Source: Candidatus Methanomethylophilaceae archaeon
GTDB taxonomy: Archaea > Thermoplasmatota > Thermoplasmata > Methanomassiliicoccales > Methanomethylophilaceae
Assembly: GCA_944320495.1 (NCBI GenBank)
Contig: CALUHR010000013.1
Span: 1 to 64,000 of the forward strand
DNA length: 64,000 bases
Reading direction: 5' to 3'
The notes beneath the pieces are model-generated. The model was not told the DNA's origin and made no database searches. It worked only from the letters and a program-made list of their open reading frames with translations. Made by a program: the position numbers and the translations under genes. Shown here piece by piece: positions 10,469 through 52,199 of this stretch; position 1 is the first letter of the stretch; the number at the start of each line of letters is the position of its first letter.

Positions 10469-11390
10469 CCGGCCTGCCGCACCTCGGACAGAAGGTGTCC
10501 CCCGGCCCTTCTGCGATGATGTTGCCGACGTAGACGAAGTTCAGACCCTCCTCGATGCCTATCTCCCTGCACCTGAGCACCGTCTCAACGGGCGTCCACG
10601 GGACGTCGGTCAGCTTGTAGTCCGGATGGAACCTGGTGAAATGGACGGGCACATCGGACGAGAGCTCCGACGCCACCCACGAGCAGAACGCACGCACCTC
10701 GTCCTCTGAGTCGTTGAGCCCCGGGATCACCAGGTACGTGAGCTCGAGATGCACCCCCTCGGAGAACACGATGCGGACCGAGTCCAGGACGTCCCGGAGA
10801 TGGGCACCGCACTCCCGCGTGTAGAACTCCTCGGTGAACCCCTTGACATCGATGTTCATGGCGTCCGCGATATGACATAGATCCCTGAGGAGGGCCTCGC
10901 ACGCCAGCCCGTTGGTCACCAGGACGATGCGTATGTCCGGGTCCACGGCGGCCACGTCGCGGATGTACTCGTACCAGATCATCGGTTCGTTGTATGTGAA
11001 CGCGATGACGCCCAGGCCCTCGCGCCTGCAGTGGGCCACCAGATCCTCCGGCGACACGTAGGTGGACCTCCTCCTGCCGGTCGGTATCGATGAAATCGCG
11101 AAGTTCTGGCAGTGGAGGCAGCGCATGTTGCACCCGGCGCCGCCTATGGACAGGCATCTCTTCCCGGGCATGTAGTTGTAGAGGGGCTTCTTCTCCATCG
11201 GGTCCACGCACATCGACGTGACCTTCCCGTAGCTGGACGCGAACAGCGTCCCGCCCTCGGCCCTGCGGGCCATGCAGCGCCCGGTCTGTCCCTCACCGAT
11301 CCTGCAGTGGTGCGGGCACAGGCCGCAGACGAAGACGTCGCCGTCCCTCTCGCAGTAAGCGGCCTCGATGCGCGGATCGGTATTCACCAT
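10263..11390 (-). CDS. Radical SAM enzyme of the AmmeMemoRadiSam (PflA-like) family
   Basis: Residues 1-45 contain a Cys-rich segment (CGLCPHHCRIGEGQTGRC). The [4Fe-4S]/SAM motif CNMRCLHC is near residue 92, and a C-terminal rubredoxin-like pair CPRCG...CSNCG is near residues 295-325. This arrangement matches the radical SAM member of the AMMECR1-Memo-radical SAM system, a conserved enzyme of unknown reaction; the AMMECR1 and Memo partners are not next to it. The start ATG at 11390 lies inside the end of thiL. The family normally ends just after CSNCGFDLGIV; here the frame continues through CGC-CGA (10379) to 10263, into the convergent peptidase gene. Confidence 0.85.
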   Translation of the reverse strand: MVNTDPRIEAAYCERDGDVFVCGLCPHHCRIGEGQTGRCMARRAEGGTLFASSYGKVTSMCVDPMEKKPLYNYMPGKRCLSIGGAGCNMRCLHCQNFAISSIPTGRRRSTYVSPEDLVAHCRREGLGVIAFTYNEPMIWYEYIRDVAAVDPDIRIVLVTNGLACEALLRDLCHIADAMNIDVKGFTEEFYTRECGAHLRDVLDSVRIVFSEGVHLELTYLVIPGLNDSEDEVRAFCSWVASELSSDVPVHFTRFHPDYKLTDVPWTPVETVLRCREIGIEEGLNFVYVGNIIAEGPGDTFCPRCGRPVIRRFGFSVDASELDGSRCSNCGFDLGIVRRRGPRGSAPGRVPGTSVRRTAPGARRVPSRSRHSAIRG

Positions 11391-12309
11391 AGGGGATCAC
11401 CGTCCTCTCGCCCCCGTCGATCAGGTGGGGTGCGCCGGTGTCGTTGACTATCCCGATGATCGAGAATGGCACCTCGGCCTCGTAGAGCCTGTCGAGCCCG
11501 TCCTGGGGCGCGGTGAAGACGAGCTCGTACTCCCCTCCCCAGCCCAGGAGCAGGTCCCTGACGTCCCTGCCGGACGCCTCGGCCATCTCATCGACCGACG
11601 GCCCCCTCGGTACGAACGACAGCTCCACCTCCATGCCCACGCCGGAGGCGGTGCATATGGTGTTCAGCGCCGTGCCGAGCCCGTCGGACAGGTCCATGCA
11701 CGACGTGACCACCCCCGTCGCGGCCATCGCCTCCCCCTCGGCCACCCTCGGGACCGGGACGTAGAGCTGGTTCCTGGCGTCCTCGGCATCGATGCCGAGC
11801 TCCAGCGAGACGAATCCCGCCGCCGGGCCGCCGACCGGCCCGGTCACTGCGACGAAGTCTCCCGGCCTGGCGCCGGAGCGGAGCATCGGCCTCCTGCCGT
11901 CCATGGATCCGAGCGCGGTCGTCGTGACCACCCCGGGACCCACCTTGGTGTCCCCACCGGCGATCCCGGTGCCGCAGAACTCGGCGCACTGGCTTATCCC
12001 ACTCATTATGTCATACGCGGCCTGGACGTCCAGGTCGCCCGGGAGGACCAGCGACGCCAGTATCCCCGTGGGGCGCGCGCCCATCGCCGCGAGGTCACTG
12101 AAGCTGACCGCCGCGGAATACCAGCCGAACTGCTCGTACGTCATGCCGGCGGGCATATGCCTGTCGAAGGTCACGGCGTCCGTGGAGACCACGACGCCCT
12201 TGCCGAGCACCGCGGCGTCGTCGCCGGGGCCGACCTCGCCCTCCCGGGCTATGAACGTCCCGAAGTCCTCTATGAGCTGCCTCTCGCCGATCTCTCCGAT
12301 CAGGGTCAT
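11293..12309 (-). CDS. thiL: Thiamine-monophosphate kinase
   Basis: A kinase of the PurM/ThiL fold making thiamine diphosphate from thiamine monophosphate. Seen: GPGDDAAVLG near residue 29, STDAVTFDRHM, FSDLAAMGARP, GGDTK, CMDLSDGL near residue 207 and GGEYELVFT near residue 257. Start ATG 12309 gives MTLIGEIGERQLI, the normal N-terminus. The conserved part ends at VIPYGEY; the next codon is CGA (11379-11377) where a stop would leave only a short overlap with the radical SAM start. The frame instead runs 98 nt into that gene. Confidence 0.9.
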   Translation of the reverse strand: MTLIGEIGERQLIEDFGTFIAREGEVGPGDDAAVLGKGVVVSTDAVTFDRHMPAGMTYEQFGWYSAAVSFSDLAAMGARPTGILASLVLPGDLDVQAAYDIMSGISQCAEFCGTGIAGGDTKVGPGVVTTTALGSMDGRRPMLRSGARPGDFVAVTGPVGGPAAGFVSLELGIDAEDARNQLYVPVPRVAEGEAMAATGVVTSCMDLSDGLGTALNTICTASGVGMEVELSFVPRGPSVDEMAEASGRDVRDLLLGWGGEYELVFTAPQDGLDRLYEAEVPFSIIGIVNDTGAPHLIDGGERTVIPYGEYRSAHRGRLLREGRRRLRLRPVPAPLQDR

Positions 12310-12341
12310 CACGACTCCATCGAGTCGGAGATATAAGGGTT

Positions 12342-12380
12342 GCTCAGATGATGAAGAATTAATTACTCCATCATCTGAGC
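12342..12380. repeat. Perfect 12-bp inverted repeat at island edge
   Basis: GCTCAGATGATG (12342-12353) pairs perfectly with CATCATCTGAGC (12369-12380) around an AT-rich 15-nt loop. It lies 10 nt past the restriction-gene stop and 33 nt upstream of thiL, exactly where base composition changes. It may be a bidirectional terminator or a boundary scar of the inserted segment. Confidence 0.8.
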
Positions 12381-12389
12381 CAGGCTTGA

Positions 12390-14027
12390 TCATGCCTTGT
12401 TTAGTTCTTTGGCTTCTTTAAGATCAATTCTAGCCCTATAACCATGCTTCTGAAGCAGATACAGCAGTTCTGCACCATTGAGAAGAGTCAGAGGCTTGTC
12501 TTTGGCAAAATTGTAAGCATCGTTTCCGTAGTTTGAGGTTGTTACAAGAATTCCCTTTGTTGCACCCTCGTTCATCACCGTACCATACAGATCTCTTACT
12601 GCCGATACTCCGACCACGTTCGTGTACCTCTTTGCCTGAATGACAATCTTGCCACCACGTATCGGATCCGGGTCGAATGCCACTGCGTCTACACCACCAT
12701 CGCGACTGGCTTGTGTGATCTTAACCTCACCACCATTTGAACTGAACTCTTTCTCGAAGATTTCTCTGATGAGATTCTCGAAATCTTGCCAGTCAATTGC
12801 TGCTAGATTCACACTGTCATCGATTGTATCTACGACATTATAGCCATCTATGAATCTCTTATCCTCGCGAGACATTGTGATCAAAGGTGCTACAGGTGTG
12901 ACATTGGCCAGAGAAGCTGCGGACACGCCCTTGGAACTCTTGAACCATGCCTTAGGGTCAACAGATGAAAGGTTCACCTCTTCGAATGACTCGCGAGATA
13001 CATTAACTGAGAGGACATATGGTTCGATTTCCTTCCCAGTAGACTTGTCGATCGTACTGACTCTTCCATTGATTACGATAGCAGAGACGGGACAGTTAAG
13101 TTCTAGACTGAAAACGAAGTTGATACATTGGAGTACCATCTGGTAGATTACACTATCATACTTCTTTTTCAGATACGATTCTGCGAAATGAGTTTCCTTG
13201 AACTCATTTCTTGACTTGACGTAGGTTACAGCCTTCAATGTCGGAATATCTTCCAACTTTGGAAGCATATAATCTACAATCACGAGGTCTGTTTCAGGAT
13301 TGTATTCCACCTCAATCAGTTTATCGTAACTGAATGGGAGTGCGAGTCTCTCAATCGCCTCCCTGACATACCATTCAACAGAGGGTACATCACCAGATTG
13401 AACCTTCTGATAGAGAGCATCGATTTTTGAGTTCTCTGAATCACGAACTCTCTCGAACTCATTCTTCCTTTGCTCCCAGTTTGCTACTTCCTTGTTGTAA
13501 GCGTCTTGTGCGACCTTATTGTTATGTGTAACGCGATCGCATTCTCTTTTCCAAATTTCATAGTCTGATTTATAAGCAAGGTTGTCAGACTCTGTCAATT
13601 CGGCCATCTTTTTCTTTGATAGTTTGGCAAACAAAGTTGGCTGTGAATTGTACTTGGAAGACTTCTTATCAGGCTCAATCGGAAGTTTCTCGAACACTGG
13701 CCTAGAAGGGGAAGGTTCTTCGAACTCTGAGAAATCCTTGAACTCGTTGATAGTGAATTGGTGAGAGCCCAGATTATCCAGAAGAATCCTGTCCATTGCT
13801 TCCTGAACTTCTTCTGCCTGTGTTGTAATTTCTTTGGCATAGGCTATGGAGTCGGCTTCATCGCGAATCTTTGCTTCACGTGCTTGCTTTTTCTCCCACT
13901 GTTCGTCCCACTGATCTTTCAGAGCGCGTACCTTCTGATCCAGCTCATATTGAGTTGCTGCCTTGACTATGCGATATTTATGCAACCCCTCATGTGAAAC
14001 TTCAGCTTGGTATGGGTATGTCACCAA
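12390..14027 (-). CDS. Mrr-type restriction endonuclease with coiled-coil N-terminus
   Basis: A 545-residue protein. Residues 30-240 are highly charged and helical, with Lys/Glu-rich coiled-coil character. A middle region (240-400) lacks a family I recognise. The C-terminal 130 residues are an Mrr_cat-like PD-(D/E)XK nuclease: WQDFENLIREIFEKEF, then the catalytic Asp in DGGVDAVA and the QAK triad in IVIQAKRY, then GILVTTSNYGNDAYNFA. Mrr enzymes cut modified DNA in the cytoplasm. Codon use is strikingly AT-rich (AGA, AAA, TCT, ATT) compared with both neighbours, indicating recent transfer. No methyltransferase lies beside it, consistent with a modification-dependent enzyme. Confidence 0.85.
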   Translation of the reverse strand: MVTYPYQAEVSHEGLHKYRIVKAATQYELDQKVRALKDQWDEQWEKKQAREAKIRDEADSIAYAKEITTQAEEVQEAMDRILLDNLGSHQFTINEFKDFSEFEEPSPSRPVFEKLPIEPDKKSSKYNSQPTLFAKLSKKKMAELTESDNLAYKSDYEIWKRECDRVTHNNKVAQDAYNKEVANWEQRKNEFERVRDSENSKIDALYQKVQSGDVPSVEWYVREAIERLALPFSYDKLIEVEYNPETDLVIVDYMLPKLEDIPTLKAVTYVKSRNEFKETHFAESYLKKKYDSVIYQMVLQCINFVFSLELNCPVSAIVINGRVSTIDKSTGKEIEPYVLSVNVSRESFEEVNLSSVDPKAWFKSSKGVSAASLANVTPVAPLITMSREDKRFIDGYNVVDTIDDSVNLAAIDWQDFENLIREIFEKEFSSNGGEVKITQASRDGGVDAVAFDPDPIRGGKIVIQAKRYTNVVGVSAVRDLYGTVMNEGATKGILVTTSNYGNDAYNFAKDKPLTLLNGAELLYLLQKHGYRARIDLKEAKELNKA

Positions 14028-14152
14028 CTCACCAATCCTCTAATGAAATAAATTGAGATAATCTTTGGGGATATGATAGAAACTATGCCTTAAATCAGAA
14101 ATCCAAAGAATTTAAATTATAAATTGTCAAATAACTTTCAAAAAACACACAT

Positions 14153-14165
14153 TCTTTAAATATAA
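14153..14165 (+). promoter_or_regulatory. TATA box upstream of the 14.2-kb gene
   Basis: CTTTAAATATAAG stands in the AT-rich stretch 14028-14190 that separates the restriction gene from the next plus-strand gene. AGGAG at 14187-14191 is a plausible ribosome-binding site for the TTG start at 14200. Confidence 0.5.
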
Positions 14166-14199
14166 GTGGCCGATTCGAAACCCAATAGGAGCAATATTC

Positions 14200-14574
14200 T
14201 TGCCTGGTCAGTCCGCAACAACGCAGCCGAAGAAGAACAAGGTCGTCGTCAACAAGCCCCAGACGGGGAACCAGTACGACAAGGGGAAGAAGAACAGACC
14301 TCAGAGGACCAAGGAGTCCACCAAGAGACAGGCGATGCTCAACACCCACCGCATCAACCCCTTCAAGTACGACATGAACCAGATTCTCGATGCGTCCGCC
14401 ATGGACCCCGCAAAGGCGTCCTCCTTCCTCGCCTCGGTCATCGCCAAGGCGTCCCGCGTATCCACCAAAGACGCGAAGGACTTCGTGAGGACCTTCCAGG
14501 ACGCGGGTGACCTCACCAAGGACGAGGTCGACAAGATCAGCAAGCTCCTGGACAAGTACAGCAGATACCGCTGA
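14200..14574 (+). CDS. Small basic protein of unknown function
   Basis: A 124-residue protein that I do not recognise. Residues 1-50 are Lys/Arg/Gln-rich and probably disordered (KKNKVVVNKPQTG, KGKKNRPQRTKESTKRQ), as in nucleic-acid-binding tails. Residues 60-124 are predicted helical (ASSFLASVIAKASRVSTKD, FVRTFQDAGDLTKDEVDKI) and end KLLDKYSRYR. TTG is used as start, preceded by AGGAG. Base composition is back to the GC-rich genomic norm, so it is not part of the AT-rich island. It lies 9 nt before the PPC-domain gene and is probably co-transcribed with it. Confidence 0.65.
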   Translation: MPGQSATTQPKKNKVVVNKPQTGNQYDKGKKNRPQRTKESTKRQAMLNTHRINPFKYDMNQILDASAMDPAKASSFLASVIAKASRVSTKDAKDFVRTFQDAGDLTKDEVDKISKLLDKYSRYR

Positions 14575-21568: not shown

Positions 21569-21598
21569 GTCCGGCCTCCGAGCTTCTGGAGGCCGGAC
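21569..21598 (+). terminator. Hairpin terminator after rps8e
   Basis: GTCCGGCCTCC (21569-21579) pairs perfectly with GGAGGCCGGAC (21588-21598), loop of 8 nt, starting 12 nt after the S8e stop. Confidence 0.6.
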
Positions 21599-32445: not shown

Positions 32446-32516
32446 GTTACCAACATGGTGTTTGGAACGTGGCTTTGAACAGGATATCACTATATTAATG
32501 GCTACTACAAAATGAA

Positions 32517-32523
32517 TATATAT
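32517..32523 (-). promoter_or_regulatory. TATA box of the hdrA-mvh operon
   Basis: ATATATA in an AT-rich block; transcription would start near 32490, giving a leader of about 55-60 nt. Confidence 0.5.
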
Positions 32524-32936
32524 TGAATAAAGCATTTTGTTTAGAGTTTTCAGTTTTGGATTTTTTAAGGCTCCTAAAATATTTAGGGTAGGCTAAATTG
32601 ATATTAGCCAGCAATCCTAAAACTGACAAAAATGTGTATTAGTATTGTTGATAATACAACTGAAAAATTTGTAGATGAAAAACGTTTTGGATGATTATTT
32701 AACAATATAAACTTCGGAATGCCTTGTTTTCCTTTGCTTATCAAATCTTTGGCACTATGGATGCACTCCGCGAAGATGCTGGCACATGTATGATGGATGT
32801 AACTCATGCATCCATCGTCATGGTAACACCAATTTTGAATTCGTAATACCTGGGCCCTTGGAACGCCTTCGGCCGAAACGCTCCGGCCGATGACTGTACT
32901 GACCAGAAGTTCGACTTCCCTAAACCCTCTCGGAAA
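32524..32936. other. AT-rich intergenic region between hdrA and rnp2
   Basis: About 410 nt, strongly AT-rich from 32524 to 32830, without a supported gene. It separates the divergent hdrA and rnp2 transcripts. A minus-strand frame here lacks homology and codon bias. Confidence 0.5.
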
Positions 32937-32938
32937 CT

Positions 32939-32945
32939 CTATATC
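32939..32945 (+). promoter_or_regulatory. TATA box of rnp2
   Basis: CTATATCC region about 25-29 nt upstream of the ATG at 32968, consistent with a leaderless or near-leaderless transcript. Confidence 0.5.
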
Positions 32946-32967
32946 CGTCTGGCCGGTCGCCGTGCGC

Positions 32968-33306
32968 ATGGTGGTCAAATCGGTGCGCGGCAGACGCCGC
33001 TACACGGCGTTCGAGGTACCCTCCAACGCGGACAGGCACAGAGCGGAGACGGCCGTCTCCTCGGTGCGTTCGGCGAAGGTCGTCACCTGCGGCCACGGGT
33101 ACGCCGTGATCCGCTCGCTGCCGTCCGAGCGTGCTACCCTGGAGGACGCGATGTGTTCCGCGATACCCGGGAGCCGCCCGTTCGACTGCTCCGGGACCCT
33201 GAGGGCGCTGAGGACCAGGCACCCCCAGCTCGCCGCCCCGAGACGCAGAAGGAAGCGACGCGCACCCTGTGATGCACTGCCCAAACGCTTTATACGGCCC
33301 CTTTAA
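32968..33306 (+). CDS. rnp2: Ribonuclease P protein component 2 (Pop5 homologue)
   Basis: A 112-residue basic protein. GRRRYTAFEVPSNADRH near residue 7 matches the Pop5/Rnp2 N-terminal strand (xRRYxxFEV), and VVTCGHGYAVIRSLPSER near 39 matches its RNA-binding sheet. With Rnp1, Rnp3 and Rnp4 it supports the RNase P RNA that trims tRNA 5' ends. Position immediately upstream of psmA at the head of the exosome superoperon is where rnp2 occurs in many archaea. Sequence divergence keeps this moderately confident. It ends in TAA, and the psmA TATA element lies within its last codons. Confidence 0.7.
   Translation: MVVKSVRGRRRYTAFEVPSNADRHRAETAVSSVRSAKVVTCGHGYAVIRSLPSERATLEDAMCSAIPGSRPFDCSGTLRALRTRHPQLAAPRRRRKRRAPCDALPKRFIRPL
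33289..33294 (+). promoter_or_regulatory. Internal TATA box of psmA
   Basis: TTTATA inside the last codons of rnp2, about 50 nt upstream of the psmA ATG; a second AT patch (CTTTAATC) follows at 33301. Confidence 0.35.
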
Positions 33307-41152: not shown

Positions 41153-41187
41153 GCGCCGAGGGGCGGTGGATCCCCGCCCCTCGGCGC
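41153..41187. terminator. Bidirectional hairpin terminator
   Basis: GCGCCGAGGGGCGG (41153-41166) pairs perfectly with the complementary arm 41174-41187, a 14-bp stem with 7-nt loop, between the convergent DHH and tyrS stops. Confidence 0.75.
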
Positions 41188-51977: not shown

Positions 51978-52199
51978 ATGTCATTTTATACTGTACTTGA
52001 TATAAATAAACAGATAGCCATCATGGAACCAGATGCCTCCAGGCGTCCGCCATCGATATGCCACGAGACGGCCTCCGTCGGGACCGGCCTGCAGAGACCT
52101 GGGGCCGGTCCCGAAACCAGTCTACGATGGCAATGTTTAAGATATCCTAAATGCCTGGAAGGCCATCGGTCCGCCGAGACGGACCCGGAAGTGAATGAT

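Follow-up and report, generated by a model that had tools for sequence, protein, structure and literature searches.

Type IV restriction relies on a single endonuclease without a cognate methyltransferase. In E. coli Mrr and its relatives, this endonuclease has a C-terminal Mrr_cat domain with a D...QxK motif, and E. coli Mrr carries an Mrr_N domain as well. One account of Mrr_cat nucleases (PMC3874153) gives the general form of the catalytic motif as (D/E)...(D/E/Q)xK. The modification-dependent nucleases of the MspJI/AspBHI family combine an SRA-like domain with an Mrr-type catalytic domain, and the CoCoNuTs join a coiled coil to a nuclease under the Type IV label and are presented in one account (PMC11090510) as a branch of the McrBC systems. 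Here we describe a solitary nuclease gene of an archaeon that shares parts with each of these systems.

The DNA analyzed, termed the window, is a 64,000-nucleotide stretch at the start of contig CALUHR010000013.1 from a Candidatus Methanomethylophilaceae archaeon. The window reads as archaeal, with matches to geranylgeranylglyceryl phosphate synthase and ribosomal protein eS8, and the genome that bears the nuclease (G000) comprises 1.77 Mb in 14 contigs. Between thiL and a conserved gene at 14.2 kb lies a block of about 1.8 kb in which the nuclease is the single ORF. The features of this region are listed below.

11293 to 12309, minus strand: thiL, thiamine-phosphate kinase, the left native neighbor (TIGR01379, E 1.7e-67)
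12339 to 14137, no strand assigned: foreign block, the DNA not common to the same gap of sister species G008 (blastn and alignment against L090; compositional borders 12329 and 14201)
12342 to 12380, minus strand: perfect 12-bp inverted repeat with a 15-bp RNA hairpin, adjoining the thiL promoter region
12390 to 14027, minus strand: Mrr-type restriction nuclease of 545 aa with a TTG start and a TGA stop, the start in agreement with homologues (alignment A3)
12393 to 12815, minus strand: Mrr_cat PD-(D/E)XK nuclease domain, residues 405-545, with D447 and Q464-x-K466 present
12816 to 13394, minus strand: middle domain (about 212-365) and a poorly predicted linker, residues 212-404
13395 to 14027, minus strand: short beta hairpin and two long helices (coiled coil), residues 1-211, fast diverging
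14028 to 14137, no strand assigned: AT-rich leader, from the nuclease start to the upstream region of the 14.2-kb gene
14200 to 14574, plus strand: conserved 124-aa gene of the genus, the right native neighbor, present in 31/31 genus genomes

By best two-breakpoint likelihood segmentation of the 11.0 to 15.5 kb interval, the borders of the block were placed at 12329 and 14201, with a GC content of 0.68 to the left, 0.42 inside and 0.64 to the right. An earlier sequence-only reading had reported a sharp change of composition at about 12.34 and 14.16 kb, and this was borne out. The GC content of the nuclease ORF was 0.438, whereas 38 other long ORFs of the window averaged 0.639 (sd 0.023, minimum 0.591); these 38 were picked by a ranking that favored length and high GC3 and into which the nuclease was forced. 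In the same comparison its GC3 was 0.453 against a mean of 0.813 (sd 0.140). Thus, the shift in codon use that had also been claimed was found as a low GC3, but not as one unique in the window, since the lowest of the 38 ORFs was at 0.391. The ORF content of the block included no methyltransferase, integrase, transposase or partner ORF. The description of the block as a single Mrr-type nuclease without a methyltransferase therefore stands, with one ORF and an Mrr_cat match, but the label of an island does not suit one gene without such companions. The 124-aa protein of the right neighbor had no Pfam or NCBIfam match. A second short GC dip, to 0.41 against a background of roughly 0.6, was observed at 32501-33000 of the window.

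The gap in which the nuclease sits was compared across the genus. Both thiL and the right neighbor were present in each of the 31 genomes. The two genes adjoined in G000 and sister species G008 (2/31), were found on one contig at a distance of 15-33 kb and facing each other in 15/31, and were on different contigs in 14/31. When the whole window was aligned, the 14.2-20.3 kb block was ahead of the thiL block (1.7-12.3 kb) in G016, G014, G021 and G020, the thiL end of G021 being on the adjoining stretch L095; the same arrangement was found for G027 aligned with 8-34 kb (thiL block from 8.2 kb). The block order in these five congeners is the reverse of that in the window. Because the neighbors adjoin in only two of the 31 genomes, the gap is a rearrangement junction, new and seen in one pair of species, and it is at this junction that the nuclease is located. 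As the gap occurs in G000 and G008 alone, no empty version of the site was found for comparison.

On the two sides of the gap, G008 was 94.6% and 96.1% identical to the window. By blastn and alignment (L090), the DNA shared by G000 and G008 ended at about 12322-12338 and resumed at about 14138-14150. The G008 gap was occupied by unrelated DNA of 1.85 kb, in which a 600-aa gene (L090 6656-8458) encodes AAA-ATPase_like (PF09820) and PDDEXK_9 (PD-(D/E)XK) domains; this gene is on the strand opposite thiL, whereas the nuclease is on the strand of thiL. Since the shared DNA stops at unrelated occupants, at least one of the two gap genes arrived after the split of G000 and G008. The different DNA in the same gap of the sister species supports the foreign origin of the block. 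The same gene at the same place with native composition was looked for and was absent in the 30 other genus genomes, many of which are incomplete.

These results, together with the relatives described below, make it likely that a single Mrr_cat restriction-nuclease gene, of a lineage found mainly in Clostridia, was acquired horizontally and entered the gap, most likely after the split from G008; the single-gene acquisition is most likely genuine and recent. It is rather unlikely that the nuclease was instead ancestral to G000 and G008, with a foreign composition that predates the split, and later lost its place in G008 to the ATPase gene. Such a history would fit a gap seen in two genomes only, so that the direction of replacement is not polarized, and an AAA-ATPase_like/PDDEXK_9 family that is multi-copy in the genus (matches in 21/31 genomes, up to 25 per genome), so that the ATPase gene could be the newcomer. 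By contrast, no trace of either gene was detected in the gap of the other genome by blastn or tblastn, and a GC content of 0.44, far from native, favors recent entry. We regard as extremely improbable an artefact of assembly or binning by which a bacterial fragment was joined into an archaeal contig: the near relatives of the gene are indeed bacterial, but the block is inside a 552-kb contig with native genes on both sides, its borders are in intergenic DNA upstream of both neighbors, and the nuclease family occurs in a second genome of the genus, G028.

The 12-bp inverted repeat noted earlier as perfect was found to be exact and beyond chance. Its arms (12342-12353 and 12369-12380) are separated by a 15-nt spacer, and 0/100 shuffles held a match with up to 3 mismatches. 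Its proposed role as the mark of the left edge did not hold, as the repeat starts 9 nt past the nuclease stop codon, inside the foreign block, and behaves as a 3'-end hairpin. An 81-nt stretch of the sense strand folded with a 15-bp stem (-30.2 kcal/mol, z -5.06), the extension to 15 bp being through a G-U pair on the nuclease sense strand. In the window, four hairpins had perfect arms of at least 11 bp with loops of 3-25, compared to one in all in six first-order Markov simulations. Three of the four, including that of the nuclease, adjoin ORF stop codons at a distance of 0-17 nt; a second hairpin follows eS8 by 11 nt, and another is between two convergent ORF ends (17 and 0 nt). The three hairpins other than that of the nuclease are at 21569-21598 and 41153-41187, both by stop codons, and at 52078-52114, with perfect arms of 11-14 bp. 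The nuclease hairpin was not called by the terminator scan, which accepts loops of 3-8 only and requires a T run; no T run follows this hairpin. The simplest reading of the repeat is the 3'-end hairpin of the nuclease transcript.

It is very improbable that the repeat marks, as a terminal or att-like repeat, the end of a small unit that transposes or integrates and carried the nuclease. The repeat does lie at the left border of the foreign block and occurs far beyond chance, as would suit such an end; however, no matching repeat was found at the right edge of the block, and no integrase or transposase is in the block. Matches to one arm with at most one mismatch numbered 16 in the genome, three of them exact and two of these the arms themselves, and no second arm pair was seen. 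The position of three of the four window hairpins by stop codons and the G-U pair on the sense strand also argue against an element end, which was rejected based on the missing right-edge partner and the 3'-end hairpin behavior. With its own leader and 3'-end hairpin, the acquired nuclease gene can therefore probably be expressed alone.

The nuclease protein was analyzed by domain search, structure prediction and structure comparison. By Pfam, Mrr_cat (PF04471) matched residues 409-525 (E 1.9e-30, 105.7 bits compared to a curated cut-off of 21). The catalytic motif is intact, and D447 and Q464-A-K466 were invariant in 11/11 alignment rows. The PADLOC mREase_IV model matched residues 196-528 at E 3.7e-56. 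No match to the nuclease was obtained by NCBIfam scan, and a PDB search by sequence returned nothing meaningful. An Mrr_N winged-helix domain had no Pfam match at E up to 1, the predicted front being a coiled coil, and neither SRA nor another known DNA-reading domain was found by Pfam in the 545-aa protein. The AlphaFold model of the whole protein was moderate (mean pLDDT 76.5, pTM 0.49), with the nuclease blocks at a pLDDT of about 58-80 and linker residues 364-407 under 50; the predicted order was a beta hairpin, two long helices, an alpha-beta middle domain, the linker and the nuclease. Predicted helices at residues 26-79 and 138-210 back the long charged coiled-coil region that had been proposed from the sequence. 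By structure comparison, the nuclease part (about residues 408-530) was similar to AF1548 (Z 12.2, 2.5 A, 109 residues) and to the modification-dependent nucleases AspBHI (Z 11.0, 3.7 A, 131 residues) and MspJI (Z 10.8, 3.5 A, 132 residues); non-nucleases such as RPB5 were also among the fold neighbors at lower Z (up to 9.5).

Relatives of the nuclease were sought in archaea, bacteria, plasmids and phages. A match was found in 17 of 149 related archaeal genomes, and 16 of these 17 matches covered only the nuclease end. The sole full-length copy among the 149 was in G028, of the same genus, at 58% identity and on a 9.7-kb contig without thiL; its GC content (0.52) was higher than that of the contig (0.47). 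On the same contig (L091 484-3439, 4968-6446) are genes for a C5 methyltransferase, a GHKL-type ATPase and a DDE transposase. In G070, of another genus, a 107-aa open frame (L003 1408-1731) matched only the last ~43 nuclease residues at 74%, and is a possible nuclease remnant.

When the genome_contigs collection was scanned with six short peptide patterns, two of which are inside the nuclease domain so that copies with a conserved nuclease are favored, 15 public relatives were returned. Eleven of these were Clostridia by title (the best at about 62%), and Prevotella, Listeria, a proteobacterium and an unnamed bacterium supplied one each. Ten of the 15 were open and about full length, with an identity on alignment of 46-61%, and five were interrupted or partial; the copies of Listeria cornellensis and Acetatifactor muris (L109, L111) were interrupted, and therefore gene loss also occurs. 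Many homologues were more AT-rich than their locus, for example with a GC content of 0.33 in 0.55 (L112) and 0.35 in 0.50 (L114), but L103 was level with its locus (0.43, 0.42). In a class sample around a Lachnospiraceae genome, 3/391 genomes matched at E <= 1e-20, one of them the chosen center. Two patterns, each located where the nuclease domain begins or close to it, found no relative in viral contigs, and one phage record matched, in the nuclease domain only. In a tree of 14 proteins, two rows of which were very long, the window protein paired with the G028 copy at 91/93, below the starred level of the tool.

The gene surroundings of these relatives had little in common. Among neighbor families in 16 homologous loci (ORFs >= 80 aa), one recurred, in one pair of loci; a shadow ORF on the strand opposite the nuclease was found in four of the 16. 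Of the 38 ORFs listed for ten bacterial loci, 16 were scanned: seven looked like metabolic or cell-envelope genes (aldolase, signal peptidase, amylase, enolase-like racemase, Gfo/Idh oxidoreductase, FtsW and MATE), four looked like genes of mobile elements or defence (Phd/YefM antitoxin, DEAD/ResIII helicase, HerA-like ATPase and phage integrase), and five were of another type or none. A homologue at 41% on an alphaproteobacterial plasmid was beside LexA-type and Cro/CI regulators and near RecT, a setting that we read as phage-like.

When the protein was compared by region to 12 homologues (the G028 copy and others, ten of them public loci of the pattern scan), the nuclease domain (405-543) was 81-90% identical in 11 of the 12. 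By contrast, identity to the same eleven was 34-58% for residues 212-365, 21-39% for residues 100-211 and 24-55% for residues 1-99. The twelfth, the Pseudochrobactrum plasmid copy, was 70, 37, 24 and 21% identical over the same four regions. At four-fold degenerate sites of the nuclease domain, 61-79% differed between the window and the 11 homologues, and 35 of 50 differed in Pseudochrobactrum. Recent recombination as the cause of the conserved nuclease domain was ruled out by this divergence, which argues for selection on the protein and not recent exchange. Five rows found by other searches had the same direction in weaker form: the nuclease domain was 51-78% identical, the middle part (212-404) was 30-44% in four and not detected in the Methylocystis row, and the coil was detected in two, at about 25%, and in none of the other three. 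Over the same three parts, the G028 copy was at 88 / 54 / 40%, and G121 matched in the nuclease domain only (34%). Thus, an archaeon, Clostridia, a Prevotella and a proteobacterium have a near-constant nuclease domain in a protein that otherwise drifts, a pattern that suggests where specificity lies.

Based on this architecture, we infer that the protein may dimerize or oligomerize through its long coiled coil, that its diverging N-terminal and middle parts would detect some property of invading DNA or of infection, and that the conserved C-terminal PD-(D/E)XK domain would then cut DNA. The intact motif, the solitary habit and the relatives point to a putative role in restriction of incoming DNA. 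Because no methyltransferase partner travels with the gene, the trigger would most likely be a DNA modification, as for Type IV enzymes. The host genome, G000, has two full-length C5 cytosine methyltransferase matches and three pieces, and one short N6/N4 methyltransferase match over the cut-off. The three-piece C5 match, followed by the short N6/N4 match, is on G000 contig C5 at 142375-145526, possibly a decayed restriction locus. With host C5 methyltransferases present, a cutter of any m5C might attack its own host, and the target of the nuclease must therefore be narrower, be regulated, or not be methylation at all.

The C5 methyltransferase genes of the host would also suit a modification-independent abortive nuclease, the front of which recognizes a phage protein or infection state while the nuclease degrades host and phage DNA or RNA. 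So would the effector-like pattern of a highly conserved nuclease domain behind a fast-diverging coil, which had the same direction in rows found without nuclease-domain patterns, and the lack of SRA, Mrr_N or other known DNA-reading domains by Pfam. We nonetheless consider this mode of action unlikely, as the PADLOC label and the AspBHI and MspJI fold neighbors point to modification-dependent restriction.

The middle domain (about 212-365), for which no Pfam match was found, folded well when modeled alone (mean pLDDT 86.5, pTM 0.77), and, compared to the PDB, reached neither a Foldseek E <= 0.001 nor a VIA-align Z of 8 with any entry. By hhalign it matched a DUF4236 protein with a probability of 96.5 (E 7.3e-10, 142 columns) against a four-row partner alignment of DUF4236 proteins. 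Two-sequence BLASTP of the nuclease and the DUF4236 protein gave 22% over 271 columns of coil and middle, and whole-protein tblastn reached plasmid DUF4236 proteins at E of about 1e-7 to 2e-10 among the matches listed. Against such a relation, the middle part alone found 16 plasmid records in the plasmid collection, in genera that did not include Klebsiella, Raoultella or Shewanella, and found nothing in the Klebsiella DUF4236 stretch. Judged by the hhalign, BLASTP and tblastn matches, a relation of the middle domain to the C-terminal part of the ter-operon DUF4236 proteins is nonetheless probable.

In the plasmid ter operons of Klebsiella, Raoultella and Shewanella, the DUF4236 protein probably has the middle domain behind a coiled stretch, as does the nuclease, but it begins with a DUF4236 domain and has no nuclease. 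Its gene has a place in a conserved gene order, unlike the solitary gene described here: it followed an HpcH/HpaI aldolase gene in 4/4 plasmid stretches examined and preceded a gene annotated TerW in one and CopG-family in three of the four. The ter biosynthetic genes in the gene order read were ATP-grasp, phosphoribosyltransferase, StiP and HpcH/HpaI. Ter operons make a nucleoside-like metabolite. It is conceivable, though very doubtful, that the middle domain senses the product of these genes or their DNA mark. If so, the solitary nuclease would be a restriction enzyme keyed to a nucleoside-like mark or signal, in which a front that changes fast is joined to a cutting domain that hardly changes.

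The locus is a clear case of a solitary restriction gene moving from bacteria to an archaeon, at a gap that differs between sister species. Two side results are of more use than the island itself: the middle domain, which probably links the nuclease family to ter-operon proteins, and the near-constant nuclease domain in a protein that otherwise drifts. Compared to known systems, the nuclease resembles the PADLOC mREase_IV profile PDLC03663. Residues 196-528 align to profile positions 197-526 of 544, an overall length like that of the nuclease, and the two in all likelihood belong to the same protein family by sequence, with the first 195 nuclease residues outside the match and the PADLOC entry being a name and not a tested function. 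The C-terminal Mrr_cat domain with its D...QxK motif is shared with E. coli Mrr, but a coiled coil and an unnamed middle domain are present here instead of Mrr_N. MspJI and AspBHI are among the closest solved folds to the nuclease domain (residues 400-535); their SRA-like domain has no Pfam counterpart here, where the middle domain is without a clear fold match. The coiled coil with a nuclease resembles the CoCoNuTs as described in the account cited above, but the block has one gene and no McrB-like GTPase. As in Type IV restriction, the endonuclease stands in its block without a cognate methyltransferase, although in G028 a C5 methyltransferase is found on the contig of the nuclease homologue. 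Thus, set beside these systems, this is a fairly ordinary horizontally acquired restriction gene, the unusual part of which is its nearly unchanging cutting domain.
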